From contig NW_003130854.1 of NCBI RefSeq assembly GCF_000003605.2, forward strand, positions 2,161,473 through 2,191,973: a stretch of DNA of 30,501 nt, written 5' to 3'. Shown here piece after piece: positions 1 to 28,927 of this stretch (position 1 is its first letter; the number at the start of each line of letters is the position of its first letter). The translations under genes and the position numbers were made by a program. The stretch comes from Saccoglossus kowalevskii (lineage: Eukaryota; Hemichordata; Enteropneusta; Harrimaniidae). The notes under the pieces are model-generated. The model worked only from the letters and a program-made list of their open reading frames with translations, did not search any database and was not told where the DNA came from.

Positions 1-6
1 ACTTAA

Positions 7-515
7 AGATTAAATATAGATAAAATAATATCAGAAAAACTAAAAACAAAGTTTAAAAAAAATTGTAAACAGATTTTAGACAATGATAATTTAACAAAGG
101 GAAAAATCACAAAAATAAATTGCGCACTTACAGAGAACTGAAAACAGATTTTGGCTTTGAAAACTACTTACATGTAGTCAAAAATACTCATCACAGGTCA
201 TCAATGACAAAATTGAGGATTAGTGCTCACAGACTACAAATAGAGACTGGGAGATATAACACAGATATATCTGACAGAAAATGTCTATGTTGTGAAAATA
301 ACGCCATAGAGAACGAAGAACATTTTCTTTTAACATGTGATCTCTACGCGGGAGAAAGAAAAAAACTTTATCAGCTGTTATCACCCCAACACTTAGCAAA
401 CAAAGAAAAATTAAAATATATTTTAAATAATAAAGATGAGAAAACAATAATACAAATAGCAAAATACATAGAGAACGGTTTCAAAACAAGAGAGGAAAAA
501 CTGAAAACATTATAG
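7..515 (+). pseudogene. Non-LTR retrotransposon (LINE) ORF2 C-terminal remnant, frameshifted
   Basis: This is the tail of a LINE reverse-transcriptase polyprotein. The reading frame that opens at 7 (RLNIDKII...) stops at 139-141. The recognisable part continues in another frame from about 108 to 515 as KLRTYRELKTDFGFENYL..., then KLRISAHRLQIETGRY, then a CCHC motif, C-x2-C-x9-H-x4-C (counting the TTG at 120 as residue 1: C55, C58, H68, C73). This order of motifs, ending in a zinc-knuckle-like CCHC, is typical of the region behind the RT domain in many invertebrate LINEs. The break between frames lies near 108-120, so the copy is dead, or the edge of the window cuts off an already 5'-truncated insertion. 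It carries no RT catalytic motif. I cannot name the clade with certainty. Confidence 0.8.
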
Positions 516-1033
516 TCAGCTAACTCAAGATAAGGTCATGTACATGCAGTAGTAATCTAAACATTCACCAACACAAATATGGAAAACAATCCAATTTACT
601 TTACCATTATTGGTAAGTAGGTAGAAAACAAACATCAATACAATAAACTAAAACCAAATGACACAATACATTACAAAATATGCTAAAAATATGCTAATAA
701 ATATGCTAAAAAATATGCTAATAAATACAATAACAATGCAATTTTTAATTATCTGGTTCTCAAAATACAAGGATTTCAACATTTGAACTTTCATCTAATT
801 AATTAAAATATTATATACAGACAAAATCATAATTGAATTGCTTTACATGAACACATCTTGTCTTCCTTACATAATAATTACATATGGCTAGTTTCAGGTT
901 GAAATAAAATTGTGTGGCTAATTAAATAAGTAATACAAATTGTGTATGCCTGAAACAAGACTGAAAGTATCTGGTGTATACTTATGAAATGTAGTGTCTA
1001 ATCCTGAGTATGCTGTAATGTTAACTGTTATCA
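516..1033. other. AT-rich spacer, 3' flank of minus-strand oxidoreductase gene
   Basis: No coding exon is visible. The stretch lies downstream of the minus-strand gene that stops at 1034. The nearest plausible minus-strand poly(A) signal is ATTAAA, read from TTTAAT at 744-749, which would give a 3' UTR of about 290 bases. Short degenerate repeats of the type 'atatgctaa(t)aa' occur around 679-725. Confidence 0.4.
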
Positions 1034-3720
1034 TTACTGGCATGAATAATCATCATTAAGTGTGATAACTCGGTTTTCTTTTCTGGCTTTCTCAGCAGCA
1101 AACACTAGTAAATGGCTTGCGAGAATTTCCTGTACACCAGTGCATATCTTGGATGTGTCATTAGTCTGGAAGAGAAATCAATATGATATAAAATAACTAT
1201 TCTAAAGCAATTATTGAATCCTACATCACATAATTTGTTCAAATTAGTTGAAAGAGGACAGACAGTTTTGATTACAATTTATTATTTTATTTGTGAGGTT
1301 GAAAATTTAGGCGTTAAATGGCATTGTTTTTTTCTAGTTCTCATAAAAAAAATAAAAAGGTATATGGTCCTATGTGATGCTAAAAATTGCCTGAATAATA
1401 TACAAATTAGGTGATTATTATGCAAAAACTAATCAGAGCTGTGCATTATCCCAGAACATATATGTACCATGTTTCCTTGAAATCTAATAATTGGTTCTTG
1501 AGATATCAGGAGAACAAGCAAACAAATTGTAACCCCTTTACTTTATGTAAAAACATTGCATACCATCTACAAGCAAACATGATAATCACTATAAATCGAT
1601 AAGAAATAACAATATATTGAAGAGGTCGTGTGCGACTGTTGTGTGACATGAACTCTTAATACATGGACAGTAAAAGCAACAATAATAGATTAGCAACAAA
1701 TTAACTGACAGAACATGATGTGAGCATGTGTGTGTATGTATGTGTCATTGACATTATTCAAGTAATCTGTACAGCAAGTCATGGGATGCTTGACAACATG
1801 GTGATAATAGGCCTGTTTAAAGATAGCCCAACTTTCAGCAAAACAGTTCTCTCAGCAACTGTTCAGCAAATGCTGTTTGCAAGAAGGTTTTTTAAGAGAC
1901 GCCACACTAAATACACACTCCAACATGGACCATCTCATAGGTAGGCTGCTGTGTGTAAGCAATAGTTGACTCAACCAGAATGGCAATATCAGTTTTGTGA
2001 TGTGTTGCTCAACAGAGACATTATCTCAGTAAAAATTGATTGTCAGTGAGTACCAAGCCAGCAGTGACGCGAGCCAAATTGGTGGATGCTAAAATTAAAA
2101 TAATGCTGTGAATATTTGTGATGGGATTTGCCATTCTGTGCTGTCGAAGATGAAAAAGATGTGTATTCTCTGATGAGATGGCACATGAGTAAAATGGTGT
2201 GCATAGTGCAACCAAAGAGAATCTCTACTGCAAGGTTGTTGAGACATAGGGATCATGTCCATTGCTGATGGCCATGGTGTATTATGTTTTATATCTTCTG
2301 ACATACAACAATCATAAATGTTAACACTATACACCCACAGACGAGTACCAGTGAAGCTAAATTTGAATAAAATCTATATGGCTGTGAAACATGTTCAAAT
2401 TTGTTGATTTTTGTTTTGAATGGTTGCCAGTTTGATAAATTTTATCAAAATACCTGCAACCCTTTATGTCTTGTATTTGTGATGAATTTAAGCAAAATGA
2501 CCTGTCTCTATAATTCACTACGACGGATTTCATTACCAGGATTGAATGAATTTGGTGTTTTTCAGGACAAAACCACTCACCAACAAGTTAAGGGGCAACC
2601 AAGCAAAAACAAAATGATGTGAAAATGTATTGTAATATAACTTGTTTTTGTAACAACTTTGAATAAAATCAGTCCAGACATGTCTGAGAATTGATACCAG
2701 ACAACACACAAACACCCAGACGTATAGACAGAAACCAAAACTCAGACCAGTTGTGACCAACTAGACCAGGTGTGAAAATTATCATACACCACTTTAATAT
2801 GTAATATGTAATTTTATAGTTTTGTTGCAGGTATACATGTAGTAAAGGCCCATGTCTAAGTTAGACTAAGTAAAAACTTACTGAAACAGCTTTCACAAAT
2901 GCATCCATTAGCTGAAAATCTGCATAATCATGCCCCGCACCGTTTATTCCAGGAAAATACTCAGATGATTCAGAAGTGAATTCATGGAGGATGACATTAT
3001 CACCATTATATCTTATCTCCCCCTGTTAAGATAAAAAGAGTGAAGACAGAAAAATTGTGATGATTGAGTTGGATCACTAATCAGGATTAGGGTATTATAC
3101 AAATTAGATTGAATTTGAATCCATATAAACGCAATCCTCCATAGGAATGCAATTTAATTAAGATTTAAATGAATCCAATTAAAAATTGTATTTAATTGAA
3201 TTTAAGTCAGTAAAAATAACAACATAAAAATTGGAACTTGATTTACAATTATTTGCATAGTCTGGTAATAGAAGGGGGTAAGGTGTGATACAAATTACCA
3301 TCAATCTATTACACTAAGCTACTATTTAATTAGATTAAATATTAATAAATTTGTAAATTGTAAATTGTGGTTTAGTGGTTGCCCATCTTAAACATGTATT
3401 TGTTAATTTACTGCCATATACAAGCATTACATGTCATGGTATGGTATGAATATAAATCATGTACTAGATGACATGCTAGTAAATTTTACCTTTGTACCAT
3501 ATATTACAGTCTCTCTGTTACAGACACGTTCTGTGAATGCCATCATTGTCAGCGATGCCGTTTTACAGCCATCAAACATGAAATTCACAACTTGGTTATC
3601 ACAGACATCATTATCACATTCATACACACATCGGCCATATGGTCCTGTTTGTAGTGCTTCAGTTATGCTTTCAATATCAGGGACTTCACAGACGACAGAT
3701 ATCGGCCATCCTGTATCACC
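1034..3720 (-). CDS. Gfo/Idh/MocA family oxidoreductase, C-terminal three exons (partial)
   Basis: Three in-frame exons joined at phase 0 encode 167 residues and a stop: 3490-3720, 2882-3022 and 1034-1165. All have AG acceptors and GT donors on the minus strand. The first reads [18 protein letters not shown], then [14 protein letters not shown] and [17 protein letters not shown], and ends VIYGTK. The second continues GEIRYNGD and ends [16 protein letters not shown]. The third runs [19 protein letters not shown] and ends with TAA at 1034-1036. This is the C-terminal substrate-side domain of NAD(P)-dependent Gfo/Idh/MocA dehydrogenases, where GTKGE and LMDAFVKAV are conserved. Family members are usually about 350-430 residues, so the N-terminal Rossmann domain and its GxGxxG exon are missing. 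No such exon is found upstream before THOC5 begins. The substrate is unknown. The protein is probably cytosolic, by family only. Confidence 0.85.
1166..2881. other. Last intron of oxidoreductase gene
   Basis: This 1.7 kb interval separates the last two exons of the oxidoreductase gene, with donor gtaagt and a cag acceptor on the minus strand. It holds a solo diverged unit of the hairpin-ended repeat family at about 1401-1530. The open frames at 1720-1944 and 2021-2334 show no recognisable domain. Confidence 0.6.
1401..1530 (+). repeat. Solo unit of the ATGCAAAT-type repeat family
   Basis: The stretch contains 'caaattaggtgattattatg', then 'aaaactaatcagagctgtgc', 'atgtaccatgtttccttgaa' and 'ttggttcttgagatatcagg'. 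These match, in order and spacing, one internal unit of the elements at 4251-5435 and 12597-13633. It is a single diverged copy without the terminal hairpin. Confidence 0.7.
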
Positions 3721-4250
3721 CTGTATTCAATTAATAGCGCTACATGTAAGTACATAATCTATAATAATAACCTATAAAATATAATCATGTACCAAAATTA
3801 TGGAAACTTGCCACTTACAAAATATTTCTTCAGATTATCTCTAAAGTATGCATCAGAAAATATTTAGAAGCCGATGAAAACTTTTAATAACTTAGAATTA
3901 TTGCATTCAGAATTTATTTTAATATTTCAAAGGAATTAATGATGATGTATTGTAGAACCCACTCAATAGTAATTTGGAATCATATGAAGTGGAATAAAAC
4001 TAGGTAAGGTAAAGGGTAATAATTAAAGGCCCAGGTATACTATAAATGCGCTCCTAAACAATAGGGATTATTTCCTTGCTTGTCATGCTGTAGTAAACAG
4101 CTCCAGTCAAGTTCCGGTAAAAATGCATTTTCTCTAATTTACAGGTCGATTATGTGGATGTATGAGACTATGAATATCACATCAGTGACTGTGTGTAGTA
4201 TTTATTACAATAAATAGTGTACGATTTGAGATTTTGAGATAAAAGTAAAA
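3721..4250. other. Non-coding stretch upstream of the first surviving oxidoreductase exon
   Basis: Neither a THOC5 exon nor an oxidoreductase exon is recognisable on the minus strand. This is part of the interval in which the two truncated genes meet. Confidence 0.5.
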
Positions 4251-5435
4251 ATCAAAGAAAGCTTAGAAAGAACTCCCATGTGCTGAGAAGTATTGGAGAC
4301 ACATTAAATATAATTTAAAATTACTTAGCTGAAAACTAATTATGCAAATCAGAAAATTAACATGAACAGATTTGATTGTAAAATTCATTGAAATGTGATG
4401 ATTAGTACTTTAGATATCAGTAGAAAAGCTGAAAATTAATTATGCAAATTAGGTAATTAATATGCACAATTATTTACCCTGAAACTAATCAGGTCTCTGC
4501 ATAGTCCTAAAGGATCTATGTACCAAGTTTCATTGAAATGCGATGATTAGTACTTGAGATACCCGTGGAAAAGCTGAAAATTAACTAATTATGCAAATTA
4601 GGTGATTAATATACACAAATATTTATCCGAAACAATCAATCTCTGCATAGTCCTTGAGTATGTAAGTACCAAGTTTCATTGAAATGTATGCTCACTACTT
4701 ATATCAAAAGCTGAAAATTAATTAATTATGCAAATTAGGTAATTATATGTACTGATATTACCATAAAAACTATCAGGTCTGTGCAGTGTCTATGACATCT
4801 ATGTACCAAGTTTCATTGAAATGTGATGATTAGTACTTGAGATATCAGTGGAAAAACCGAAAATTGACTAATCATTATGCAAATTAGGTAATTAGTATCC
4901 ACGGATTATTACCAAAAACTAATCAAAACCTAGCATTAGTTCAGAAAATCTATGTACCAAGTTTCATCAAAATCCAATGAGTGGTTGTTTAGATATCAGT
5001 GGAACAGTCATGGAACCACTAAAAAATAGCTAATTATCATGCAAATTAGGTAATTAATATGCACGGATTTTTACCAAAAACTAACGAAATCTGCGCATAT
5101 GTTCAGAGCATCTATGTACCAAGTTTCATCAAAATCCAATGAGTGGTTCTTTAGATATCAATGGAACAGTCATAGAACAGCTAAAAATTAGCTAATTATC
5201 ATGCAAATTAGGTAATTAACGAGCATGGATTTTTACCAAAACCTAATCAAATCTGCGCATTGGCCCAGAGCATCTATGCACCAAGTTTCATCAAAAACTG
5301 ATGTATGGTTCTTGAGATAGCAGTGGAACAGTCGGACACACATACACACATACACACACACATACACACATACACACACACATACAGACACACTAACTGC
5401 AAAGACTCCCATTTTGTGCTTCGCACATGGGAGTC
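4251..5435 (+). mobile_element. Hairpin-ended repetitive element, copy A (about 1.2 kb)
   Basis: The left end reads 'atcaaagaaagcttagaaag' followed by actcccatgtgctgag. The right end is a hairpin at 5404-5435 with GACTCCCAT pairing ATGGGAGTC and an inner GTGC/GCAC stem around TTC. The body is about seven tandem units of roughly 100-165 bp. Each carries 'atgcaaattaggtaattaat' or a variant, 'tctatgtaccaagtttcat' and 'gatatcagtgga'. The same ends and units recur in inverted orientation at 12597-13633, which defines the element. There is no ORF, so it is non-autonomous. Its class is unknown: the 3' hairpin recalls a Helitron end, but I see no CTRR terminus. Confidence 0.75.
5336..5395 (+). repeat. 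(CA)n-type microsatellite inside the repeat element
   Basis: This is an irregular run of cacata and cacaca units just before the right-end hairpin of copy A. Copy B carries the complementary tgtgta run at about 12641-12680 in the same relative place, so the microsatellite belongs to the element. Confidence 0.85.
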
Positions 5436-5531
5436 AAAAAAGAAAATAACATTACATAAACCCATGACAATCACATAACTGGCGCCCTCCATTGACAACT
5501 TTGAGAAACAATAACAAGACATTCAATTTAC

Positions 5532-8500
5532 CTTTTTCTCTGTTCAAGTTCCCAATCTAATCTGGCTAATCTCAACTGATGAGGATCTCGGTTTGTTTTT
5601 TCAGGTTTAGATATTTCTCCCGGTGCCTTTTCATAGAAGTCTGACACATCAACAAGATCTATATCTTCATCCATAGAACTGTAAGCAAAGAAAAAAGATC
5701 AAATAAATTAAAATTTAATATAGCATGAGAGCTTACCTAACAGTTTTATATACTGTGGAATACTTTATTTTCACTGGAATTAATTTTCGCTGAAAAGGCT
5801 TAGTGGGCGTTTTGTGTGGAACTTATTTTCACTGATTTTTGATGAGTTTAATGTGAAATATAGGAAAAAAAGTATATTCGTTGAATTTTATTTTCACGGA
5901 ATTATTCCTTCAGCGAAAATAAATTCCAAGCGAAAATAAAGTATTCTACAGTATACCAAACTTATTTTCTCAGAAATAATTTTTTCATCTGAAACAAGAT
6001 TTACAAGTACAAGGAAGTTAGGAAACTTTGATAAAGCATGTAAAAGATGTTTTAACTACTAGTATTGATACTCACGTAAATTCCAAACACTTTGTAACTT
6101 CTTTCTGTAGATGCATCGCTTCATACAACAAATTCTGCAACTGTAGATGGAAACTGTCCACTTTCTGTTTGGATTCATGTGTGGAATCTTTTGACTTCTT
6201 ACTTCGTATGTGTGCAATGCGATTTAATTTCTTAAGAGTCACAAAATTTAAAGATGATTGGATTCGTCTTGCCGTCATCTCGCCAGTCTATAAAACAATA
6301 AATTTAATAAAAAAATTTATTAAAGATAACTTGTATGAAAATACAAAAATAACAGTAAATTAAAAAGAAAATTACTTACATTATCTTTAACACCTTTCAT
6401 CTTCATATCATAAATTTCTTTCATTAATTTCTTGATATCATTTGAAGCAGCTGAAAATATTGCTTGGTCTTTTACTGGATCTCTCTGATCAACTTCTCTT
6501 TCTTCACTGTATACAAATTCCTATAATCCACATATACAAAGTTTTAACTTATTTCATTGTGAATGACACAGTTCATGACGATACCGTACTCGACCGCGTT
6601 AGCGCCCAGGGGCCTCAACTCAGAAAATCACGATTTTTTTAGGGGTGGGCGCTTACCCGAGCACTCCCCTCGGGAAAATGAAAATTTTGATTCATCATGC
6701 GACAGATATTACGTCTTTGAGGGAAAATCAGTGAAGTGAATTATCGATGTCGAAGTACGATCTGTTGGAATTGAATTCAGCGAAGAAACGACATGTTTTT
6801 TTTCCAAAAAACTGGTAACTAGCCATTTTTGAGAGGTAAACTGAATATGGCATGAACTATTTACCGCATTTTTATTTGTATCAACAGGTCATTGTCAAAG
6901 CATAGTTTACGCACGGTTACCGTGGTCTGCGCATTCACAACATATTCACAGCGGTCGATAGTTGATATCCACGCTGTATCATATAAAAACGATTACTAAG
7001 ATTTGTTACGTAATTATCAAAGACCAAGTTTTAAATTAGTTGCATTTTGAAGGGGTGGGCGCTTAGCCGAATGTAACCCCGAATATAAAAATTGCACAAA
7101 AGTGGAGGGTGGGCGCTTGACTGGGCATGGACGCTAACGCGGTCGAGTACGGTAATTGAAGTGTCTTAACATATTGGAATTTTTATACAATCCAGAGAAA
7201 GAGACCTGAAGAAAAAACAATATGGCAGGCAGTCAGCCATTCTGAATCAGAATTTGAAAACCAACATTATTTTCATCATCCAAAGTTTGATTGAAATTAG
7301 CCCAGTCATTTCTGAGAGCAGGTTGTAAACATGTTCAAGTATTAGGATTTAATCCGATTTACTTCCAAAATGAGTCAGTGAGTGACTTTATCTGTTGGTA
7401 CGGTAGAGACTATTCGCACCATATTTGTGCATATAATAGAATACTGTAAAATGACTAATTTTCACTGGGTATAAATTTTGCTGATTTACCATTTCAGGCA
7501 TATTTAGTGGGTTTTAAATTCACGGTTTTGTCATTTAGATAATGTGTGCTAAATTTTACATATTCACTGAGTTTTAATTTAGTGCATTTTCCAGTCAGCG
7601 AAATAAGCAAAATTAAAACCCAGTAAATAATTACCATTTTACAGGAGCTTTGCATCGCATTGGTGCAAATAACAGAAATAGATACATAATTCTCACTGAA
7701 TTTGTAAATAGCAGAAAGATATCAACTATTCACACTATTTCATTTATTACACCACAGTCCCACTATCCATCTACAGCGGGACTGTGATTACACCACAGCT
7801 AAAAATAAATTACAGCGCAATAAATAAATAAATATTGTATATAGCAGATAATATTGGTAATCATTGTCCTAAGTACATTTGTAACTACTATTATTATACA
7901 TCTGTCATCGTAACACCATAAGTTACAGCCTGCCATAATTTTGCGGTATTGCACTGGGTATTTTCATCCTACTATATTAGGAAATGCAAATTCCAAATAT
8001 GGAATGATTACATGCATAAACGTTCTCTAATAATAACAAACAAACATGGCTGCCCCAGAGTTTGACCAGACCCCACACAAAAAAGTTTGCTAAATCTGTA
8101 CTAAACGTTTTAGATTTTGGCATTCCCATGATGTATTCCTGGGAGGAAAAGATGTATAATAATAAGGTTATTACGAGGATACTGCAAAGTATGCACTCAG
8201 ACAGTATGTGGTCGCATCGACCTTGGCTGCACGTCGGCCGATACTGTACTGTACTCTCTTCATGCATACTTTGCAGTATCTTCGTAATTTATTTATCTTA
8301 TTTCAGACTGTCAAACATTTGAAAGTCCATATAAAACAAGTAGGAAAAATAAATAAATAAATGAACAAGACATATATGTATGTAGGCCAACAGAAATGAA
8401 TGAAGAAAAATTACCTCATACTCATAGTATTCAAAATAAATATTGTATTGTAAATAAATATAAATATTGTATTTGGAAGTGAGTGTCAGAAAATTTCACT

Positions 8501-8811
8501 CACCGATCAGCATTTTAGAGAGAAAATAAAACTATTTCTGCGGGGATACTATATTATCTCAGTGTGATACACACACACATACGAGTATGCTGTAGTTTTA
8601 CATGTAGCAGTTCCCATTGTCATATGTTGCTTGGGCTTCGCTACGTCCCCATAACATCGGCAAGTTTACCAGACACTATGAGTGTACCCACCTTATCATA
8701 GGACGATAATTTTACTTTCTTGGGATCTTTCGAACTGACAGATACATCGCTTAATGGACGTGTTGTTCTACGGCGTGTTTTTTTCTGTGAAAGTGATGTA
8801 CTTGAAGACAT
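5532..8811 (-). CDS. THOC5: THO complex subunit 5, first four exons (3'-truncated gene)
   Basis: The minus-strand exons are 8692-8811, 6380-6520, 6076-6287 and 5532-5678, joined at phases 0, 0 and 2. They encode 206 residues plus two bases. The protein starts [11 protein letters not shown] with a basic N-terminus. It continues [15 protein letters not shown], then [54 protein letters not shown], and ends [19 protein letters not shown]. These blocks match vertebrate THOC5 in order. THOC5 is a coiled-coil subunit of the THO/TREX complex, which couples transcription to nuclear mRNA export. Human THOC5 is about 680 residues, so only the first 30% is here. Exon 4 ends with a normal donor (gtaaat), but no following THOC5 exon is visible down to position 1. 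The start at 8811 is the first ATG of the exon. The gene is head-to-head with the VPS9 gene. Confidence 0.92.
5749..5955. mobile_element. Hairpin MITE, copy 1 (about 207 bp)
   Basis: The left end 'tatactgtggaatactttat' and the right end 'aaagtattctacagtata' are inverted repeats that extend about 45 bp with few mismatches, including ttttcgctgaa/ttcagcgaaaa. It lies in THOC5 intron 3. A related copy in opposite orientation is at 14874-15058. TA or TATA flanks are compatible with target-site duplication. There is no ORF. Confidence 0.8.
6582..7154. mobile_element. 573-bp element with perfect 23-bp terminal inverted repeats
   Basis: Both ends begin TACCGTACTCGACCGCGTTA and stay identical for 23 bases when the right end is reverse-complemented. 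The outermost TA may be the target duplication. Inside are three direct copies of GGGTGGGCGCTT, at about 6643, 7053 and 7108, each next to a G- or C-rich run. No transposase ORF is present. It is a non-autonomous DNA transposon inserted in THOC5 intron 1. The superfamily is not identified; a TA target would fit Tc1/mariner-like or other TA-inserting families. Confidence 0.8.
7442..7645. mobile_element. Hairpin MITE, related family (about 200 bp)
   Basis: The left end 'ctgtaaaatgactaattttc' and the right end 'aattaccattttacag' are inverted repeats with imperfect extension inwards (cactgggt and acccagta). Layout and motifs ('ttttcactggg', 'tcagcgaaa') resemble the MITEs at 5749 and 14874 but the sequence is clearly diverged. 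It lies in THOC5 intron 1. Confidence 0.65.
7753..7786. repeat. Short hairpin
   Basis: CACAGTCCC and GGGACTGTG form a perfect 9-bp stem around a 16-base loop. It stands alone in THOC5 intron 1 and no function is evident. Confidence 0.5.
8170..8288. mobile_element. Small foldback element
   Basis: The arms at 8170-8195 and 8263-8288 (attacgaggatactgcaaag.. and its reverse complement) pair over 26 bases with one mismatch around a 67-base GC-richer centre. It lies in THOC5 intron 1. The shape fits a miniature inverted-repeat element. No second copy is seen in the window. Confidence 0.6.
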
Positions 8812-12100: not shown

Positions 12101-15100
12101 AAACGTTAACAGTCATCAGGCCTCCAGCCTTTGCTGAAATGCTTATGGCATTTCTTGCAAACACCTTTAGAGTTTGCTGATTTAATATACTAAAAAAATC
12201 AGGCCTGAGGACTGTCGACAGTCTATTAAATATACAACTATCATTTTATACATTGTGTATACATTGTGAAGGCAGTATCTTTTCATTCACTGTTACTTGT
12301 TTTAGTTAAATTTGTTTGTTAATTTGTTAGCTTGTTATTTTTTAAATTTTAGCTGTAAAAAACATTTCTTTAATTATGTCGCTGTTTTTCTTGCAGTCAC
12401 TATGAAAGTACAGATAAAACTGGTAACAAAAGTATTGCAATTGAAAATGGTTTTGTTCAAACCAAAGATGGATTCTCTGTTAACACAAAAATCAGGATTC
12501 TGTCTGAAGAACTCAGCTACAATAAGGTATACATTGACACTTAGAAAACCTAAGTCAACTTTTGTCTGAAATTTTCTGAAATAAACTTAATTTTTTACTC
12601 CCATGTGCGAAGCACACAATGGGAGTTTTTGCAGTTACCCTGTCTGTATGTGTGTATGTGTGTGTGTATGTGTGTGTGTCCGTCTGTTCCACTGATATCT
12701 CAAGAACCATACATCGTTTTTTGATGAAACTTGGTGCATAGATGCTCTGGGCCAATGCGCAGATTTGATTAGGTTTTGGTAGAAATCCATGCATATTAAT
12801 TACCTAATTTGCATGATAATCAGCTCATTTTTAGCTATTCCATGACTAATTTCACTAATTTAGTCCACTAATTTCTAAAGAACCACTCATTGGATTTTGA
12901 TGAAACTTGGTTCATTGATGCTCTGAACTAATGCTAGGTTTTGATTAGTTTTGGATGAAAATCTGTGAATATTAATTACCGAATAATGATTAGTTAATTT
13001 TCGGCTTTTCCACTGATATCTCAACTACTGATCTTTGCATTTCAATGAAACTTGGTACCTAGATGTCATAGGACACTGCACAGACCTAGTAGTTTTTAGG
13101 GTATATCAGTACATATTAATTACCTAATTTGCATAATAAATTAATTTTCAGCTTTTGATATTTCAAGTAGTAAGCATTACATTTCAGTGAAACATGGTAC
13201 ATATATACTCAAGGACTATGCACAGATCAATTGTTTTGGGATAAATATTTGTGCATATTAATCACCTAATTTGCATAATTAGTTAATTATCGGATTTTCA
13301 CGTATATCTCAAATACTAATCATCACATTTCAATGAAATTTTGTACATAGATGCTCTAGGACAATGTATAAATATGATCAGTTGTGGGTTAAATTAGCAT
13401 AATAATTCATAATTATGATCTGATCACATTTCAATAAAACTTGGTACATAGATGGTCTGTTACATTGCGCAGACCTTATTAGTTTTACACTTTGTTCATT
13501 TTAATTTCATGATTTGCATAATTATTTTTCAGCTTTTCCATCAATATCTCAAGTACAAGTAATTTTGAATTAATTTTTACTGTGTCTCTAATACTCTCAG
13601 CACACGGGAGTTCTTTCTAAGCTTTCTTTGATTTCATATATTTTCAAAAATATTGATCAAGACTGGTAGCAAATAGGGGATTATGTCAATTTGGCCTAAA
13701 AATAACAGAAAAACATTATACAAAAATACATAAAATGTTGCGCCATAATTGTGGTGAAAAAAATGTTAAAGTTAAGAGTTGTTGGATAAGCGAATCACTA
13801 TTTGTATCTCAGCAGCTGCAATCCACCCTGCCACATTTGATAATGTATCCTTCAAACTCTTTTCTGCATCCATAGTTCCATTGCCTTACACAGTACACAC
13901 AGTGTACTGATTATATCATGATTTGTCATATACTGCATAGTATGATTTGCTATAACAAAAAATTTATATTATTTACTTTCAGGATTATAAACCATTCAAG
14001 ATTTTAATAATAGAAAAACCATTGGATCCAAGGTTCAGGGTGAGTATTATTTACAGTATCAGTATATTGAAGCATATGATTAAAGGTTACTATTGGTAAC
14101 AAGGCAGAGATTTCAGAAAAATAATTGAACTGTTATAATAAGTACTTTTTGTACTTGATTATGTTAGAAATCTAATCACATTTTTTTATTTGCAGACTGG
14201 CAACTTTGTTTCATTGTCGCCTGTAGATACGTATACTAATAGCATATCATTTCAGGAGTAAGTGATTTCTTTGTATATGTATGTGTAAACAGAGTAATGA
14301 TTTGATGAACCATTAATTAAATGTGTCTATTCTACAACATTATACCTTGAGATCTCATAGTTATGTAAGTGTCTAGTGAACAACTTTACAAACAAACATC
14401 CTACAATGATCATGATGCGATATTTACTTTTCAATTTTGACTTTCAGAAACAAGAAACTTCTGTTTCAATTTCCGGAACACAGAGTGCCTTTGTCAATTT
14501 TAGATCAGAACATTAAACAATTTAACATGAATTATATGATATTGCAAGGTTACTTGGACCATGCTGCAATGAAGTTACAGGATATGTGTTTTACTGCTAC
14601 TGAGGTAAAAATGCTCTACTTAGAAAATCATCTTTTTGTAGAAGTGCTCATCAAGCCAAAATATTTTTTTATTGTACATATTGTTTTTCCATAGATACAC
14701 TCATTTATGTAAAGGTGTATGTTACTTTTGGTTTATGTACCGATATAGTCAAACCTGTGTTTAGAAACTACCCAATATGAACAGTGTTTATAGACAGGTG
14801 GTCTTGTATGGAGGTTGAATTATCTTTTCTTGAACTGCCACCTCATACATTTCAAACTATGTTTAAAAACAAATACTGTAGATAACTTTATTTCGCTGAA
14901 GGGATGATTTCGTGAAAATAAAATTCAGCGAATATACTTTTTTTCCTATATTTCACATTAAACTCATGAAAAATCAGTGAAAATAAATTCAAAGCAAAAC
15001 GCCCAAAAAGCCTTTTCAGCGAAAATTAATTCCAGCGAAAGTAAAGTATTCCACAGTAATTTGTTTCTGTTCCTGTTCCAAATTTGTTTGATGTTAACAA

Positions 15101-18100
15101 AATCAAGTTTGACTTAAAAATTATTTTATAAACAGAATTTTGGTTCTTAAGCAAAGACAATTAAAAATATTGGTCACATAAGACAGGTATTTTTTTTACC
15201 CTGGTTGCTCATACATTATGTCATAATAGGCTTTTTTTTCTTTGAACTAATGCTGTAATAGTTTTATTTCATATGATTGCCCTATCAAAATATAAGTAAA
15301 AAAAATAGTTGACTATTATATGTACATGCAAAACTCAAATTTGCAGTAATATTACCGCCAGTCCAAATTTTAAGTTAGATGCATCAAAATTAAAGTTGTA
15401 TGTGTTACATTACCCAATGGATACTAAAAAAAATTTTTAATTTGCAAAAAAAATTTTACTAGTGTTCATTTGCATTTTTTTGTTATGAAATATATAAATA
15501 TTTCTATGGTATACACTGGAGTCTACTAAGCCATGTACGTTATAATTTATTTATAAACCAAAATGATTCCAGTTACATATTGTATGAACTTGTGCAGCGT
15601 CTGTCACATATTTGGCAGATGAAAACAGTAGATCATGGTAAGCTGAGAAAGTGTTGTGAAATCTCAAGCCATCATTGACTGGTCTGATTGATTCTTGAAT
15701 GGATGGAGCAATCTGCCTAGTCTATCCAATTATCTTTTTTATTAATTGAATTAGATTAAATTCAAATAAAAACAGTTGGATTTATAAGTATAAAAAATTT
15801 ATTTTATAAAAATAAACAAAGATTTGTTGATTTATAAGCGTGATTTGATTTTGATTCGCAGAGCATTTTGAAAGTTAACAGAAATACGCGACGTAATGCA
15901 GACAGGAGAATGGTTGATATATTGACAATTGCAGTTGAAAGGTAAACATTTTGTCTGTGCATGACAAATTTATATTTTTCTCATTTTGCTTAATAATTTG
16001 TGTAAATGTTTGGTCAAAAACATAAGTCTGAATTCTGTGTTGGCATATGCCGGTCATCCTAAAATAAGAAATTATTATAGATTAATAATTAATTATTATT
16101 ATAGAATGCATGCATGTCGTATTATCATATTATAGCTAGTTTTTACTGAGTTGCACTTTCACTTTGCAATATAGTGAGGTATCATTCCCTGGCCAATATG
16201 TGCACTGTCAATGTTGACGTCGTGGAAGAGCAATGGAGAGATACAGAATATGAATTGAAGTGAATCTCCTAAATTAAACTAGCTTTGTAAACAATAGACA
16301 CTCATTTGAAGGGTTTGTTTTATCGTTGGTATGTTTGATAAAAATATATTTATACAATTTGTGTTTTTATCTTATCTGGGAGTGATATTTCATATACAAA
16401 GTAGGAATGCAATTATAGCTGGTAATCTCAGTACTATTATTCATGTAAACTGTAAATATAACACTGATCATATTTTATTTCACATAGTTATGTTATGGGG
16501 TGTGTTCATAGCAAAGTATTCCCGGCTGTCTGTCAGAAGTGTTGTAGAGATGATAACAAAATCTGTAGCAAAGAGAAAGAACTCCAAGGAGTTGGAGGTG
16601 ACGAATTTGGTGTCAAAACTGAGTTTTGCTGTCCACTACCAGCATCAGTGAGTATTCATTTACCCTCAAACTAGCTTAGAATCTAGAACCTACCGGTAGG
16701 CTTAGATGATGACATTTTCAATCAACCAATCAAATTTAGTCAATAGCTGACAGTGATTAAATATTACTAGCATCATACCTAGATATAATTGATGGCATTT
16801 TCAAACAACCAATCAAATTTACAGTCAATAGCTGACAGTGATTAAATATTACTAGCATCATACCTACGCTTAGTTGATGGCATTTTAATTCAACCAATCA
16901 AATTTACAGTCAATAACTGACCATGGTAAGATATTACTAGCATCATACCTAGGCATAGTTGATGGCATTTTAATTCAACCAATCAAATTTACAGTCAATA
17001 ACTGACCATGGTAAGATATTACTAGCATCATACCTAGGCATAGTTGATGAAATTTTCAATCAACCAATCAATTTTACAGTCAATAGCTGAAAACAATGAG
17101 ATATCACGTTTTTCAATATTGCATATTTTTTGTATCAATGTGTTTTCTGATGAATCTATTCATAGCATTCATACATGGTATATTTACCATACTAATGAAT
17201 TGTGCAATGTTTTACGTTATGTAGGTTGTTGAATTAGCAAGATTGGATGGACTCTACACCCCACTTGAAAAATTGTTTTGTTTAAAATCTACGTTGGTGA
17301 GAATTGTAATTTCATATATACACTCATCACTTCACATTGTTTTGTATTATACGTACATGTATTATATTAGTATCTGTTGTGGGTTTTTTCTGCCCTCTAG
17401 TATGGACTATAATTAAATCTAATCCCATGTATTTGCATATCGTTTAGACCAAGTTGTGTCCATGCATAAAAGTTACTTGGGGACAACCAAACTTACCAAG
17501 AAATTGTCAGTTCTTTTAATTTTGATTTCTCATTAAGATAACCAGTTTTACTCCATGTTCCTTGCATGTAGGGAATAACACGAAATGAATAGTCATAAAT
17601 ATAACAGTAAATATTTCAAATGGACAACACATACAATATTGTTTTGTTGCCAGAGGTCATCCTTCAGGGCACTTAGATTGAACCAGCTATTTCTTTGCTC
17701 ATACTGAGGATTTGCACATGTTTCACTGTACAATTTACAACTACGATTTTTGACCTCTTAGACCATGCTAAGGAACTTTGCATGAATACAACTATTATGT
17801 GTTTATATATATGGTTTGTGTTAATTATAGGATTGTATATCAGAAGAAGTGAATTACTTTGCTAAAGACAATGTGGTAGCTGGTAATGAAGTACCATGCA
17901 TTGCGTCAGATGATCTTATACCTCTACTGGTAAGCAAAGTCCACAATCATGAAGCGGATCTGCCATTACTTAGTCAGAATGTGTCCAATATTGCATTTGT
18001 CATCCAGTGTTTGTATTTTAATAGCAAGAAAGAAACAATATTAATTTGACTTTCTTGGTGAAAATAAAAAAGTTGCTTAGTGTAACATTTGTGTTAAGAC

Positions 18101-21100
18101 AATAATGTTTATATCCATCCGTGTTAAAATGATTGGTTACCTTATTATGGTCATCATTAGGGTCAATGCCATTAAGATACCAGGAATAGAAAAATAATTG
18201 GTGTCATCGAACAAGTCCAAAATTGTGGTGTGGAATATGACAGAAATTTTGCATTTTAACACTGGTTTCTATGGTGAAATTATTTCTTCACAATGAATCC
18301 TGAAATTTTATTTGGTGACATTATTGATATGAATCCTAATGCTGTTAAAAAAACACATTTAATTTTGTGTGTTACTTGTGTCATAATATATTCCTAAAAA
18401 GTACAACGAGTAATCCTCTCCCACAATGCATTGTATATATGTGCAGTAACATGCTCAGTAGTGCAAAATTTGAATTCAACTCCCACAATGCATTGCATAT
18501 ATGTGCAGTAACATGCTAAGTAGTGCAAAATTTGAATTCAACTCCCACAATGCATTGTATATATGTGCAGTAACATGCTCAGTAGTGGCAAATTTGAATT
18601 CGACTCAAACTGTCTTGAAGTTACTATGGATTCAAAAATAAAGGGTGATAACATTACATTTTATTTTGCTCATTGCTGAAACTTAGGTTATTTTTGCTTA
18701 AAGTTGTATCGTTATTCCATTTCAGGTAACAGTACTCATCCAGTCTAAAAGCACTCATTTAATCAGTAATTTGTATTATATAGAACATTTTCACTGGGCA
18801 ACAACGTCAAAAGATGATCTCAGGTTAGTCATACACTCAGTTAATGTTTAATAAATACAGCTAATCTGTATTTCAGATAATTATCACATTTGTATCATGT
18901 ATATCTGACCTGTGTAATGGAATCTGCCTCAGTGTGAGCCTTATTCATGACAGAACTTTTTCAGTAAATCAAATAGAAAGTATTAATTATTCAATTAAGT
19001 TCAGTAAAATTTGTACATGTACAGGGTACATGTAGCATGTTTTATGATAAATCTATAAATTTTTAAAAGAAATCACTGAAAACCATTCGACCAATCACAG
19101 TAATTTTGAATTTGACATCACTAGTGTAGATGAAATGATCTGAGTGTCATCCAATCAGCAATCAGTTTCACACTTAGAGAATGATACAAAAGTTCATTCC
19201 AGCGTCTCTCATTTCAATTGAGAATCAAAATATTTTCCAAAAAATTACAGTTATTGAATTCACTTGGTAATCTGAAATGCATATATACATGTGTCACATA
19301 TATACTTTTGTATTATTTAGTTTCAGTCTAGTGACATTTAAGGCTGCTACAGAATATTTTCTGAACACTGATTTTTCACATCTCAAACCACTTGCACCGA
19401 AGATGAGAAATGAGGTAAGTGGTTGCTGCTACATTTGGTAATTATTATTGATATTGACAATGATGTGACGTGACTCCTTCAATTGTTGTGATGAGCAAGA
19501 CTTTGGAAATTTGTTAGTTTGAAATTACGAGACTTTAGTTTGGAGACAATTAGTAGCAATCCAACAAGTTAAATTTATAACATTTTAACATGTGCTACCA
19601 GTACATGATTTGTGTCTGTAATATGTTAGCTAGAATGAAAATTTCTGCTGTTGGTTTGAAATCTATGGATAATCTTGATAAACTGGGTTTTAAGTATAGG
19701 ATAAAGCTTGAGTACAAAGATTTACTATTTCCATAGCAACTGGATCCAGATCTCGTCTAATGTAATTGGTTGTTTTGAAGGAGAATCCTTCCCTAAAGAA
19801 AATTTTATAGTACAAGTGTTATCATTGGTTACTTGTTAATATATAGTCGTTATTACTATTTTTAATTTAAATTAAACATCTTATTAATACCGGTACTTCT
19901 TTTTATGGACACACCCCCCCCCTCATGGGCATGTAAATTAAAAATCATTCTCAAAGTTGTTGTTTCCATGGTTACCAGATCCTTCTCCACCAAAATTTAT
20001 TAGATTGGCATTTTGAATGAAAATTAGTTCCTGGAATGAATGTTTCCATGGCAACCGTATCTACAAATTTCACAAACAAACATACACTGGCAAAAATGTT
20101 ATTGAAAAATCCTTGGCTGACTAATTGCATGCATTTTTTGTAAACTTCATATCTGTAATATACTAGATGACACTAGAAGAAATTCTTCTTGCCAAAAAAG
20201 AACAAGAAAATGAAACTGGGGAAAAAGGTGAGAGAAGCAGAGACAGCCATAAAGTAGCATACAGAACACGTGGAGGTTCATTCAACAGAGAATTAGACAA
20301 TATAACAAGAATGATAGAAAAAACTACTACTAGTCCTACAAATACAACTACTCCAATGAAATCTCTTTTTGCCGGTAAGTCAAACAACTGTGATACTTTA
20401 GGATGTGTCTTAATTTGTGTATGTTAAGCCCTGCTCAGATTGATCTAGTACAAAGGTATAACACTGCTCAGTAAAAGAATGACCTTGCTAACCAAAGAAA
20501 ACTGCCTATTCATACAACATCCCTTATAATCTATATCAATTATCCTGTTTATCAAATAATGTATTTAGTATATTACCGGTAGTAGCAATTATGTGAATGA
20601 AAGAGTTGTGTTTATGGGTCACAAATTTTAATGATATGCCATACATGTGCAATAAATGTAATTTTTATGTGCACTTCTATTGGCCATATGGTAGGAGCAA
20701 ATATGATAGTGGTTGATACTTATCTGTTTTAGAATATGACCAAGTCCAAGCAAGTGGTTTTGCTCAGAGATCTACAGTTGTACCTCCAGACGTGATCCCT
20801 TCATCATCAGCACACACAAGACTACAAACTCCACTTGGGTAAGCATGACTAAGCTCAAGGTTGTTGCATTTGCATATTCATGTCATATTTTATTACAGTA
20901 TTATTGACATATCATCAGGATTTATGATGTAAAATTTATTGGAGCCAGTAGGAAAAGTAGAGTAAAGTTGGTTATCATTATCAAATGTTTTTTTGGTTGT
21001 ATACAAAGTCTTGATGTGAGCCATGATGTTTTGTGCATGATTTGACCTACAACCTTTGATCTGATAGGTTAAGTACAATCTATGTTATTAACCAATCAGA

Positions 21101-21769: not shown

Positions 21770-23975
21770 CTACAGCTATATTCTGCAAATCTACATAGCT
21801 GTTCGCAAAACTACATTGCTGCTGAAGTCTGCTTCCAGTCAATACAGATGATACAATCTTCAGTCCATTTTGCTGTTACAGTCCTCAACCAATCTACATA
21901 GCTGCTGCAGTTGCCTACCAATCCACACAGTTGATACAGTCTTCCAGTCCACATAGCTACTGCAGTTGCCTATCAATCTACACAGTTTCTGCAGTCCTCT
22001 AGTAATCTACATAGCTACTGCAGTTGCCTACTGGTCCACACAGTTGCTACGGTCCTATAGTAATCTACATATCTACTGCAGTTGCCTACCAATCTACACA
22101 GTTTCTGCAGTCCTCTAGTAATCTACCTAGCTACTGCAGTAGCCTACCAATCTACACATTTGCTGCAGTCCTCTAGTAATCTACATAGCTACTGCAGTTG
22201 CCTACCAATCTACACAGTTGCTGCAGTCTTCTAGTAATCCACATAGCTACTGCAGTTGCCCACCAGTCTACACAGTTGCTGCAGTCTTCTAGTAATTTAC
22301 AAAGCTACTGTAGTTGCCTACCAGACTACACATTTTCTGCAGTCCTCTAGTAAACTACATAGCAACTGCAGTTGCCTACCAGTCTACACAGTTGCTGCAG
22401 TCTTCTAGTAATCCACATAGCTACTGCAGTTGCCCACCAGTCTACACAGTTGCTGCAGTCTTCTAGTAATTTACAAAGCTACTGTAGTTGCCTACCAGAC
22501 TACACATTTTCTGCAGTCCTCTAGTAAACTACATAGCAACTGCAGTTGCCTACCAGTCTACACAGTTGCTGCAGTCCTCTAGTAGTCTACATATCTACTG
22601 CAGTTGCCTACCAGTCTACACAGTTGCTGCAGTCTTCTAGTAATCTACAAAGCTACTGTAGTTGCCTACCAGTCTACACATTTTCTGCAGTCCTCTAGTA
22701 AACTACATAGCTACTGCAGTTGCCTACCAGTCTACACAGTTGCTGCAGTCCTCTAGTAATCTACATATCTACTGCAGTTGCCTACCAGTCTACACAGTTT
22801 CTGCAGTCCTCTAGTAATCTACATAACTACTGCAGTTGCCTACCAATCTACACAGTTGCAGCAGTCCTCTAGTAAGCTACATAGCTACTGCAGTTGCCCA
22901 CCAGTCTACACAGTTGCCTCAGTCTTCCAGTAATCTACATATCTACTACAGTTGCCGACCAGTCTACACACTTGCTGCAGTCCTCTAGTAATCTAAATAC
23001 TCACTGCATTTTCCTACCAATCCACAGTTGCTGCAGTCCTCTAGTAATCTACATAGCTACTGCAGTTGCCCACTAGTCTACACAGTTGCTGCAGTCATCT
23101 AATAATCCACATAGCTACTGCAGTTGCCTACTGGTCCACACAGTTGTTGCAGTCATCTAGTAATCTACATATCTACTGCAGTTGCCTACCAGTCTACACA
23201 GTTGCTGCAGTTTTCTAGTAATCAACATAGGTACTGCAGTTGCCCACCAGTCTACACAGTTGCTGCAGTCTTCTAGTAATCTACATAGCTACTGCAGTTG
23301 CCTACCAGTCTACACAGTTTCTGCAGTCCTCTAGTAAGCCACATAGCTACTGCAGTTGCCTACCAGTCTACACAGTTTCTGCAGTCTTCTAGTAATCCAC
23401 ATAGCTACTGCAGTTGCCTACCAGTCTACACAGTTGCAGCAGTCTTCTAGTAATCTACATAGCTACTGCAGTTGCCCACCATTCTACACAGTTGCTGCAG
23501 TTTTCTAGTAATCCACATAGGTACTGCAGTTGCCCACCAGTCTACACAGTTGCTGCAGTTTTCTAGTAATCCACATAGGTACTGCAGTTGCCCACCAGTC
23601 TACACAGTTGCTGCAGTCTTCTAGTAATCTACATAGCTACTGCAGTTGCCTACCAATCTACACAGTTGCAGCAGTCTTCTAGTAATCTACATAGCTACTG
23701 CAGTTGCCTACCAGTCTACACAGTTTCTGCAGTCCTCTAGTAAGCCACATAGCTACTGCAGTTGCCTACTGGTCTACACAGTTGCTGCAGTCTTCTAGTA
23801 ATTCACATAGCTACTGCAGTTGCCTACTGGTCTACACAGTTGCTGCAGTCTTCTAGTAATCCACATAGCTACTGCAGTTGCCCACCAGTCTACACAGTTT
23901 CTGCAGTCCTCCAGTAATCTACCGGTACATAACTACTGCAGTTGCCTATCAATCTAATTGCTGCAGTTAAGTACT
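21770..23975 (+). repeat. 58-bp satellite array, about 36 copies
   Basis: The consensus unit runs cagttgctgcagtcttctag, taatctacatagctactgca, gttgcctaccagtctaca. It contains two CTGCAG sites per unit and is itself roughly two related halves. The first units, before about 21890, are decayed. Blocks of three units are duplicated exactly 174 bases apart (aatttacaaagc at 22294 and 22468). The unit length is not a multiple of three and no long ORF is kept. The array starts within 40 bases of the VPS9-gene stop codon and no AATAAA occurs before its end, so it may form most of a 3' UTR. Confidence 0.95.
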
Positions 23976-26174: not shown

Positions 26175-28927
26175 GCTGACAGTGTTCAACCAAAAATGCC
26201 ATTATAACTAGGAGTGGTCAACCAACCAGGTAGTGGTCACTAGGAAGGAGTGCTCAACCAATCAGGTCGTTGACACTAGGAGTGGTCCATCAACCAGACT
26301 GTTGTCACAAGGAGTGGTCCATCAACCAAACAGTTGTCACCAGGAGTGTTCAACCAATCAGATCGTGGTCACTGGGAATGCTCAACCAATCACGTCGTTA
26401 ACACTAGGAGTTTTTAACCAATCACGTCGTTGACACTATGAGTGTTCAACCAATCAGGTCATGATCACTACAAGTGCTCAATCAATCACGTCGTTGTCAC
26501 TAGTAGTGTTCAAACAATCAGATCGTGGTCACTAGGAGTGCTCAACCAATCACGTCGTTGACACTAGGAGTGTTCAACCTATTACGTCGTTTACATTAGG
26601 AGTGTTCAACCAATCACGTCGTTGACACTAGGAGTGTTTAACCAATCACGTCGTTGACACTAGGAGTGTTCAACCAATCAGGTCGTGGTCACTAGGAGTG
26701 CTCAACCAATCACTTCGTTGACACCAGGAGTGTTCAACCAATCACGTCATTGACACTGGGAGTGTTCAACCAATCAGATCGTCGTCACTAGGTGTGCTCA
26801 ACCAATCACTTCGTTGACACTGGAAGTGTTCAACCAATCAGGTCGTGGTCACTAGGAGTGTTCAACCAATCAGGTCGTTGACGCTAGAAGTGTTCAAACA
26901 GCCAGGCCGTGATCACAGGAGTGTTCAACCAATCAGACTGTTGTCACTAGGAATGGCCGTCCATCAACCAGACTGTTGTCACTAGGAGTGCTCGACCAAT
27001 CACGTCGTTGACACTAGAAGTGTTCAACCAATCAGGTCGTTATCACTACGAGTGCTCAACCAATCCGGTCGTGGTCACTACAAGTGCTCAACCAATCACA
27101 TCGTTGACACTAGGAGTGTTTAACCAATCACGTCGTTGACACTAGGAGTGTTCAACCAATCAGGTCGTGGTCACTAGAAGTGTTCAACCAACCAGGCTGT
27201 GATCACTTGGAGTGTTCAACCAATAAGGCTGTTGTTACTAGAAGTGTTCAATCAATCAAGTCGTGGTCACTAAGAGTGTTTAACCAATCACGTCGTTTAC
27301 ACTAGGAGTGTTCAACCAATCAGGTCGTGGTCACTATGAGTGTTCAACCAGTCAGGTTGTGTTCACTAGGAGTGTTCAACCAATCAGGTTGTGGTCACTA
27401 TGAGTGATCAACCAATCAGGTCGTGGTCCCTCAGAGTGCTAAACCAATCACGTCGTTGACACTAGAAGTGTTCAACCAATCAGGTCGTGGTCACTAGGAG
27501 CGTTCTACCAATCAAGTCGTTCACGCTAGGAGTGTTCAACCAACCAGGCCGTGATCACTAGGAGTGTTCAACCAATCACGCTGTTGTCACTAGGAGTGGT
27601 CCATCACCCAGACTGTTGTCACAAGGAGTGGCCGTCCATCAACCAGACTGTTGTCACTAGGAGTGCTCAACCAATCACGTCTTTGACACTAGGAGTGTTC
27701 AACCAATCACGTCGTTGACACTAGGAATGTTCAACCAATCAGGTCGTGATCACTACGAGTGCTCAACCAATCACGTCGTTGACACTAGTAGCGTTCAACC
27801 AATCAGGTCGTGGTCACTAGTAGCGTTCAACCAATCAGGTCGTTGACGCTAGAAGTGTTCAAACAGCCATGCCGTGATCACAGGAGTGTTCAACCAACCA
27901 GGCCGTGATCACAGGAGTGTTTAACCAATCACTAGGAGTGGCCGTCCATCAACCAGACTGTTGTCACTAGGAGTGGCCGTCCATCAACCAGACTGTTGTC
28001 ACTAGGAGTGGCCGTCCATCAACCTGACTGTTGTCACTGGGAGTGCTCAACCAATCACGTCGTTGACACTAGAAGTGTTCAACCAATCAGGTCGTTATCA
28101 CTACGAGTGCTCAACCAATCCGGTCGTGGTCACTACGAGTGCTCAACCAATCACATCGTTGACACTAGAAGTGTTTAACCAATCACGTCGTTGATACTAG
28201 GAGTGTTCAACCAATCAGGTCGTGGTCACTATGAGTGTTCAACCAGTCAGGTTGTGGTCACTAGGAGTGTTCAACCAATCAGGTTGTGGTCACTAGGAGT
28301 GATCAACCAATCAGGTCGTGGTCCCTCAGAGTGCTAAACCAATCACGTCGTTGACACTAGAAGTGTTCAACCAATCAGGTCGTGGTCACTAGGAGCGTTC
28401 AACCAATCAAGTCGTTCACGCTAGGAGTGTTCAACCAACCAGCCCGTGATCACTAGGAGTGTTCAACCAATCACGCTGTTGTCACTAGGAGTGGTCCATC
28501 AAACAGACTGTTGTCACAAGGAGTGGCCGTCCATCAACCAGACTGTTGTCACTAGGAGTGTTCAACCAATCACGTCTTTGACACTAGGAGTGTTGAACCA
28601 ATCACGTCGTTGACACTAGGAGTGTTCAACCAATCAGGTCGTGATCACTACGAGTGCTCAACCAATCACGTTGTTGTCACTAGGAGTGGTCCATCACCCA
28701 GACTGTTGTCACAAGGAGTGGCCGTCCATCAACCAGACTGTTGTCACTAGGAGTGCTCAACCAATCACATCTTTGACACTAGGAGTGTTCAACCAATCAC
28801 GTCGTTGACACTAGGAGTGTTCAACCAATCAGGTTGTGATCACTACGAGTGCTCAACCAATCACGTCGTTGACACTAGTAGCGTTCAACCAATCAGGTCG
28901 TGGTCACTAGGAGTGCTCAACCAATCA
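26175..28927 (+). repeat. 32-bp minisatellite with CCAAT motif, about 86 copies
   Basis: The consensus unit is actaggagtgttcaaccaat followed by caSgtcgtKgtc. Most units have CAACCAATCA and end either CACGTCGTTGAC or AGGTCGTGGTCAC, often in alternation. A longer variant unit with 'gccgtccatcaaccagactg' is interspersed. Segments are duplicated at higher order: about 27300-27770 recurs 895 bases downstream at 28195-28665. The repeat is out of phase with any codon frame. It ends abruptly at 28927. Confidence 0.97.

Follow-up and report, generated by a model that had tools for sequence, protein, structure and literature searches.

Assembly misjoins and ectopic recombination both occur at dispersed repeats. 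The locus described here resembles such cases in that an intact-looking repeat stands between flanks that appear to come from different places. The sign of the seam is different: it comes from a third repeat, a half MITE cut off at the element, rather than from reads.

The repeat at the seam is most like the non-autonomous Helentron-like elements (HINEs). In the portion of the published account drawn on here (PMC7492417), Cg_HINE of the Pacific oyster has a 5′ subterminal repeat of 11–12 bp, an inverted repeat complementary to it, a microsatellite, central repeats and a 3′ subterminal repeat, together with T-rich ends and copies in non-coding parts of genes, and the element studied here is alike in each respect. 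Central repeats average 140–180 bp in Cg_HINE (PMC7492417, same portion) and measure about 137–162 bp in our element. The likeness is one of module description rather than of letter-by-letter alignment, and the 3′ palindrome of our element is short and folds weakly. The DINE-1/HINE families of Drosophila and mites share with it the subterminal inverted repeats, the microsatellite and apparently insertion in T-rich DNA, according to the sections of Thomas et al. (PMC4067079) used here. Those sections report a tie between DINE-1/HINE families and breakpoints of gene duplications, propose end bypass as a source of HINE-linked duplications, and describe captured gene fragments in Helentrons as rare, with none in mite HINEs.

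We analysed a stretch of 30,501 nucleotides of the Saccoglossus kowalevskii genome (hereafter the window), on scaffold C2261 (3.16 Mb) of an assembly of 572 Mb in 4830 pieces. The original prediction, made from the window alone, held that two minus-strand genes, THOC5 and a Gfo/Idh/MocA oxidoreductase, are both truncated at one repeat-filled junction.

Results

To the right of the repeat, four minus-strand exons of THOC5 were read, together with the beginning of a further intron.

8692..8811, minus strand: THOC5 exon 1, start codon at 8811 (exon/splice analysis and human THOC5 match)
6380..6520, minus strand: THOC5 exon 2 (exon/splice analysis and human THOC5 match)
6076..6287, minus strand: THOC5 exon 3 (splice analysis and human THOC5 match; PF09766 in genome search)
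5532..5678, minus strand: THOC5 exon 4, the last found, phase 2, donor GT at 5531–5530 (splice and domain matches)
5442..5531, minus strand: beginning of THOC5 intron 4 as far as the element (90 bp between exon 4 and HINE A)

GT follows all four exons and AG precedes exons 2–4. Spliced together, they give 206 codons and 2 nt, and therefore end in phase 2. Residues 31–206 of the peptide match residues 24–199 of the 683 in human THOC5 (PDB 7apk_E, E 3.3e-61), and the FmiP/Thoc5 domain PF09766 was recognised with 149.9 bits, over profile positions 1–103 of 362 only. At 206 residues against 683 in human, the gene in the window falls short of full length. The longest of its introns seen, from the exon limits, is 2.2 kb.

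In the window THOC5 keeps exons 1–4 only, as had been predicted, the last of them ending at 5532. When 88 stop-free minus-strand pieces of at least 20 residues overlapping 1–5531 were searched with PF09766, none matched, while exon 4 as a control was positive; human THOC5 residues 200–683 gave a best E of 6.1 in the window and of 2.3 in five other stretches tested. The genome, much of which reads N, likewise yielded no exon beyond exon 4 in its readable part. Genome-wide absences, this one included, are weak evidence because N was read at 15 of 20 sampled 250-base places (8 of 13 with the seven scaffold starts left aside), because both window flanks are N (18,554 bases on the left, at least 10,000 on the right), and because the protein search misses short exons. 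Its bluntness can be gauged from the full-length oxidoreductase query discussed below, which recovered one of three exons in the window and one of five on scaffold C4610. A candidate for THOC5 exon 5 at C649:97058–97225, which scored under the cut-off (18.3 bits, E 0.24), was rejected; by eye its minus strand looks like coiled coil, and THOC5 matches in three stretches of C649 were no better than E 5.8.

THOC5 stands head to head with a plus-strand gene for a VPS9-domain protein, the start codons (8811 and 9070) being separated by 258 bp, and the two genes perhaps have a promoter region in common. Just downstream of the VPS9-domain gene are minisatellites at 21879–23922 (58 bp × 35) and 26181–28927 (32 bp × 85). 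A palindromic MITE some 208 bp long occurs at 5750–5957 and again at 14887–15058. Among the best 40 of 1917 candidates in one genome search, 39 other scored places matched only the stretch 5750–5957, with 89–96% identity in the best piece.

To the left of the repeat, the next coding exons on the same strand belong to the oxidoreductase.

3490..3720, minus strand: oxidoreductase exon, profile positions 261–341 of 426 (splice analysis, homologue ORFs and profile)
2882..3022, minus strand: oxidoreductase exon, profile positions 337–389 (splice analysis and profile)
1034..1165, minus strand: last oxidoreductase exon, including the stop codon at 1036–1034, profile positions 389–425 (splice analysis and profile)

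These exons join in phase 0 throughout and account for 167 residues at the C-terminal end of a protein of about 430. The peptide is similar to ORFs at 66 of 67 prokaryotic loci, with roughly 36–63% identity, and in full-length ORFs the match runs from about residue 250–330 to the end or near it. A Pfam scan of two homologue ORFs found PF01408 and PF02894 in both; the window fragment by itself lies below the Pfam cut-off, a PDB search with it gave no match up to E 1, and an NCBIfam search gave none. A profile built from 59 full-length oxidoreductases and run over the six frames of the window (stop-free pieces of at least 15 residues) matched only at positions 261–425 of 426, the next best match having E 1.2. 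The NAD-binding Rossmann domain, PF01408, was absent from the window in a six-frame profile search. The best N-terminal tblastn match (E 0.003, 20399–20166, minus strand) was rejected as a missing exon, being without profile support; it lies antisense to what was taken for a VPS9-domain gene exon encoding a highly charged stretch.

The left-hand gene is thus present as a C-terminal part without N-terminal exons, in agreement with the original prediction, and no missing exon of either gene was found in 3721–5531 or the rest of the window by the oxidoreductase profile, PF09766 or human THOC5 residues 200–683. The further claim that exon 4 could not usefully be spliced to the exon beginning at 3720 was borne out: the frame shifts and TAA follows after 19 codons, and a THOC5–oxidoreductase fusion gene is rejected on these grounds.

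In its best segments, the intron-bearing oxidoreductase (exon 3490–3720) shows 44–64% identity to genes from Chloroflexota, Planctomycetota, Thorarchaeota and other groups (L001–L067). At the left end of the window, positions 1–540 carry the last part of a gene for a non-LTR reverse transcriptase; its frame is broken, and zf-RVT matches it weakly, under the cut-off at E 0.0025.

A genome search with a full-length bacterial relative led to two places, the window and C4610:19444–19608. The minus strand of C4610 carries five oxidoreductase exons between 20531 and 17724, which cover profile positions 7–171, have a methionine in the first exon where the matched protein starts, and contain PF01408 (E 5.8e-21). 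This scaffold is 925,913 bases long; the exons run toward its left, nearer end, and its first 17,371 bases read N. The C4610 piece covers homologue residues 25–183 and the window piece 277–440, with no overlap, and near-invariant columns are kept in 18 of 19 and 28 of 29 cases, respectively. The C4610 half has its nearest homologue in L013, the window half in L001 and L002, and the identities of the two halves to the 59 homologues have a rank correlation of 0.43. The two pieces are probably halves of one oxidoreductase gene. The difference in nearest homologues tells against this, and C4610 could instead hold a complete paralogue with its 3′ half in the first 17.4 kb that read N. Of the exons missing from the window, Rossmann exons of the same oxidoreductase family were thus located on C4610, and readable sequence yielded nothing of THOC5 past exon 4. 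In the intron that follows the fourth C4610 exon (17800–18720, L097), inspection by eye showed a repeated splice donor, in the form of tandem copies of the exon end and 5′ splice site (AAAATCAAGGTAAGAC).

Between the two half-genes lies a repeat whose parts, with those of related copies in the window, are as follows.

4250..5441, minus strand: HINE A, a full-length non-autonomous Helentron-like element of 1192 bp, 5′ end at 5441
5404..5435, minus strand: hairpin formed by the 5′ subterminal inverted repeat (ACTCCCATGTGC at 5434–5423) and its complement
5336..5393, minus strand: TG-type microsatellite of HINE A
4384..5330, minus strand: central tandem repeats of HINE A, about 137–162 bp
4272..4283, minus strand: 3′ subterminal inverted repeat of HINE A, complementary to the 5′ one at 12 of 12 bases
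12591..13640, plus strand: HINE B, a second full copy, inverted with respect to A, within what appears to be an intron of the VPS9-domain gene (plus strand)
1379..1529, no strand assigned: decayed piece of the HINE repeat family in an oxidoreductase intron (blastn)

Judged by its modules, the element at 4250–5441 is a non-autonomous Helentron (HINE). Subterminal inverted repeats stand near both ends and pair at 12 of 12 bases in HINE A and 11 of 12 in HINE B. The 5′ hairpin, in which the 5′ subterminal repeat meets its complement, is stable in both copies (−12 kcal/mol, z −5.0 in A; −10.1, z −4.4 in B), and a microsatellite is followed by central tandem repeats in the order expected of a HINE. 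The 3′ palindrome AAGCTT (4259–4264) has no stable fold (z 0.15). Nine other copies were examined, and among the four with a readable 3′ end the palindrome is kept in three and has one mismatch in the fourth (L073). Runs of T precede the 5′ end wherever that end is readable, and TT stands at the 3′ end. HINE B is 83% identical to HINE A (892 of 1078 ungapped columns, in an alignment that takes in short flanks). That it sits within an apparent intron suggests that a HINE copy need not break its host gene. The original prediction neither identified the element as a HINE nor noted this second copy.

The family is abundant. A stretch of 20 bases from the 5′ end of HINE A has 270 exact copies in readable sequence, the window's own included, and the reversed control pattern has none. 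The best copies are 97–98% alike over about 1 kb. Up to position 1059 HINE A is 97% like two other copies (L069 and L070), and over its final 90 bp or so it is 98% like a third (L128); a switch point inside HINE A is not shown by this pattern, as repeat number varies among copies. One scaffold, C2287, stops 12 bases past its HINE match (27901 of 27913).

The repeat had been placed at 4251–5435, exactly between the half-genes. It does lie between them, with limits refined to 4250–5441, but it does not abut the exons, from which it is separated by 90 bp of intron on the right and 529 bp on the left. The left-hand interval contains a second dispersed repeat.

4023..4249, plus strand: first half of a 426-bp MITE, ending at the element (genome search and comparison of copies)

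In a genome search with 2800–4250, 39 places besides the window itself were found among the best 40 of 215 candidates, and only the last 230 or so bases were matched. They belong to a MITE of 426 bp, numerous in the genome, which starts with TTAAAGGCCCA and ends with TGGGCCTTTAA; all seven copies read (L121–L127) are of full length, one to within 2 bases. The copy in the window breaks off in its A run at about 4249, where the 3′ end of HINE A begins, and its remaining 184 bases are absent both at 5442 onward and from the whole window. HINE A itself has both ends intact, each resembling a normal T-rich insertion edge. A single simple insertion should leave the 184 bases beyond the HINE 5′ end. 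Since they are absent, the flanks, as far as the letters allow us to judge, are not the two sides of one target sequence, and a seam is present in the sequence. A pattern for the reciprocal junction, in which the MITE's second half would adjoin a HINE 5′ end, gave 0 matches in readable sequence. Neither half-gene had a second allele or paralogue in readable sequence among the best 40 of 1917 and the best 40 of 215 candidates, all other matches being on MITEs.

The proposal that this repeat is a junction made by recombination, deletion or misjoin thus holds as regards the seam, to which the half MITE and the Rossmann exons on C4610 both point; the sequence does not choose among the three, and rolling-circle capture also fits. 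Truncation of both genes is a fact of the window sequence and need not hold in the animal, both halves looking intact and constrained.

Discussion

The reading we favour, ahead of ectopic recombination and then of rolling-circle capture, is a join made in assembly through near-identical HINE copies, and we give it an even chance of being right. On this reading, two separate loci would meet in the window within a single HINE copy. In the animal, THOC5 and the oxidoreductase would each be complete, each with a HINE in an intron; the assembler would have passed from one HINE copy to another, up to 97–98% alike over about 1 kb, leaving the remainder of each gene on other scaffolds, and the oxidoreductase 5′ half on C4610 would be the likely partner of the 3′ half in the window. 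The misjoin is favoured because both half-genes are intact, because the oxidoreductase 5′ half lies near a scaffold end and points at it, and because C2287 stops just after a HINE, an instance in which the assembly does stop at such an element. Counting against it are the minisatellites of 2.0 and 2.7 kb in the window, which suggest reads able to span 1.2 kb, as well as the 0 matches to the reciprocal junction, the chance that C4610 carries a paralogue, and the fact that true recombination gives identical sequence. If two HINE copies had undergone ectopic recombination in the animal itself, by deletion, inversion or translocation, the outcome would be the same cut MITE, together with a hybrid element and two broken genes. 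With HINEs present in hundreds of copies, many of them highly similar, and with no second copy of either half-gene in readable sequence among the candidates scored, such an event is conceivable, and it would probably be recent or heterozygous; however, open frames, splice sites and conserved residues in both halves are unexpected for an old fixed break, and loss of THOC5 is expected to be harmful. We consider it unlikely.

There are two further readings, both improbable. An ordinary single HINE insertion into a long THOC5 intron 4, with the second MITE half removed in a deletion of its own and the 3′ end of the oxidoreductase being an old intronic fragment or a gene whose 5′ part is lost or distant, finds a parallel in HINE B, which lies in an apparent VPS9-domain gene intron without breaking the gene, and the rest of THOC5 could be in the 18.5 kb of N to the left. 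Yet it requires a deletion that halted exactly at the intact HINE 5′ end and, on the same side, a gene fragment of independent origin, and intron 4 would exceed 5.5 kb against 2.2 kb for the longest intron seen. The other, which we rate a little lower, is rolling-circle capture, in which the HINE 3′ end was bypassed and the half MITE and last three oxidoreductase exons were carried into THOC5 intron 4. By the same improbable route THOC5 would continue to the left of the window, leaving it on its own strand into N sequence, and the oxidoreductase fragment would be a passenger copy. The oxidoreductase exons and the cut MITE do lie on the element's 3′ side, the side that read-through would take, and end bypass and gene-fragment capture by Helentrons both appear in the sections of Thomas et al. 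(PMC4067079) drawn on here, although the same sections call captured fragments rare in Helentrons and give none for mite HINEs. Moreover, no second terminator (subterminal repeat with at most 2 mismatches) occurs left of 4272 in the window, the oxidoreductase fragment is without decay, and its three exons have no second copy in readable sequence. That a bypassed-terminator HINE brought in the half MITE and three last exons, complete with splice sites and stop codon, and so gives an animal example of Helentron exon capture in which a non-autonomous element took up more than 3 kb, is the least probable of the propositions considered here.

If the join is an assembly error, as we favour, annotation of this genome will show two conserved genes as truncated, and others that carry intronic HINEs may be broken likewise; the half-MITE test would offer a cheap way to detect such joins with nothing but the sequence. 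Should the join be real, satellite-carrying Helentron elements would be seen to break genes by recombination, or to capture exons.
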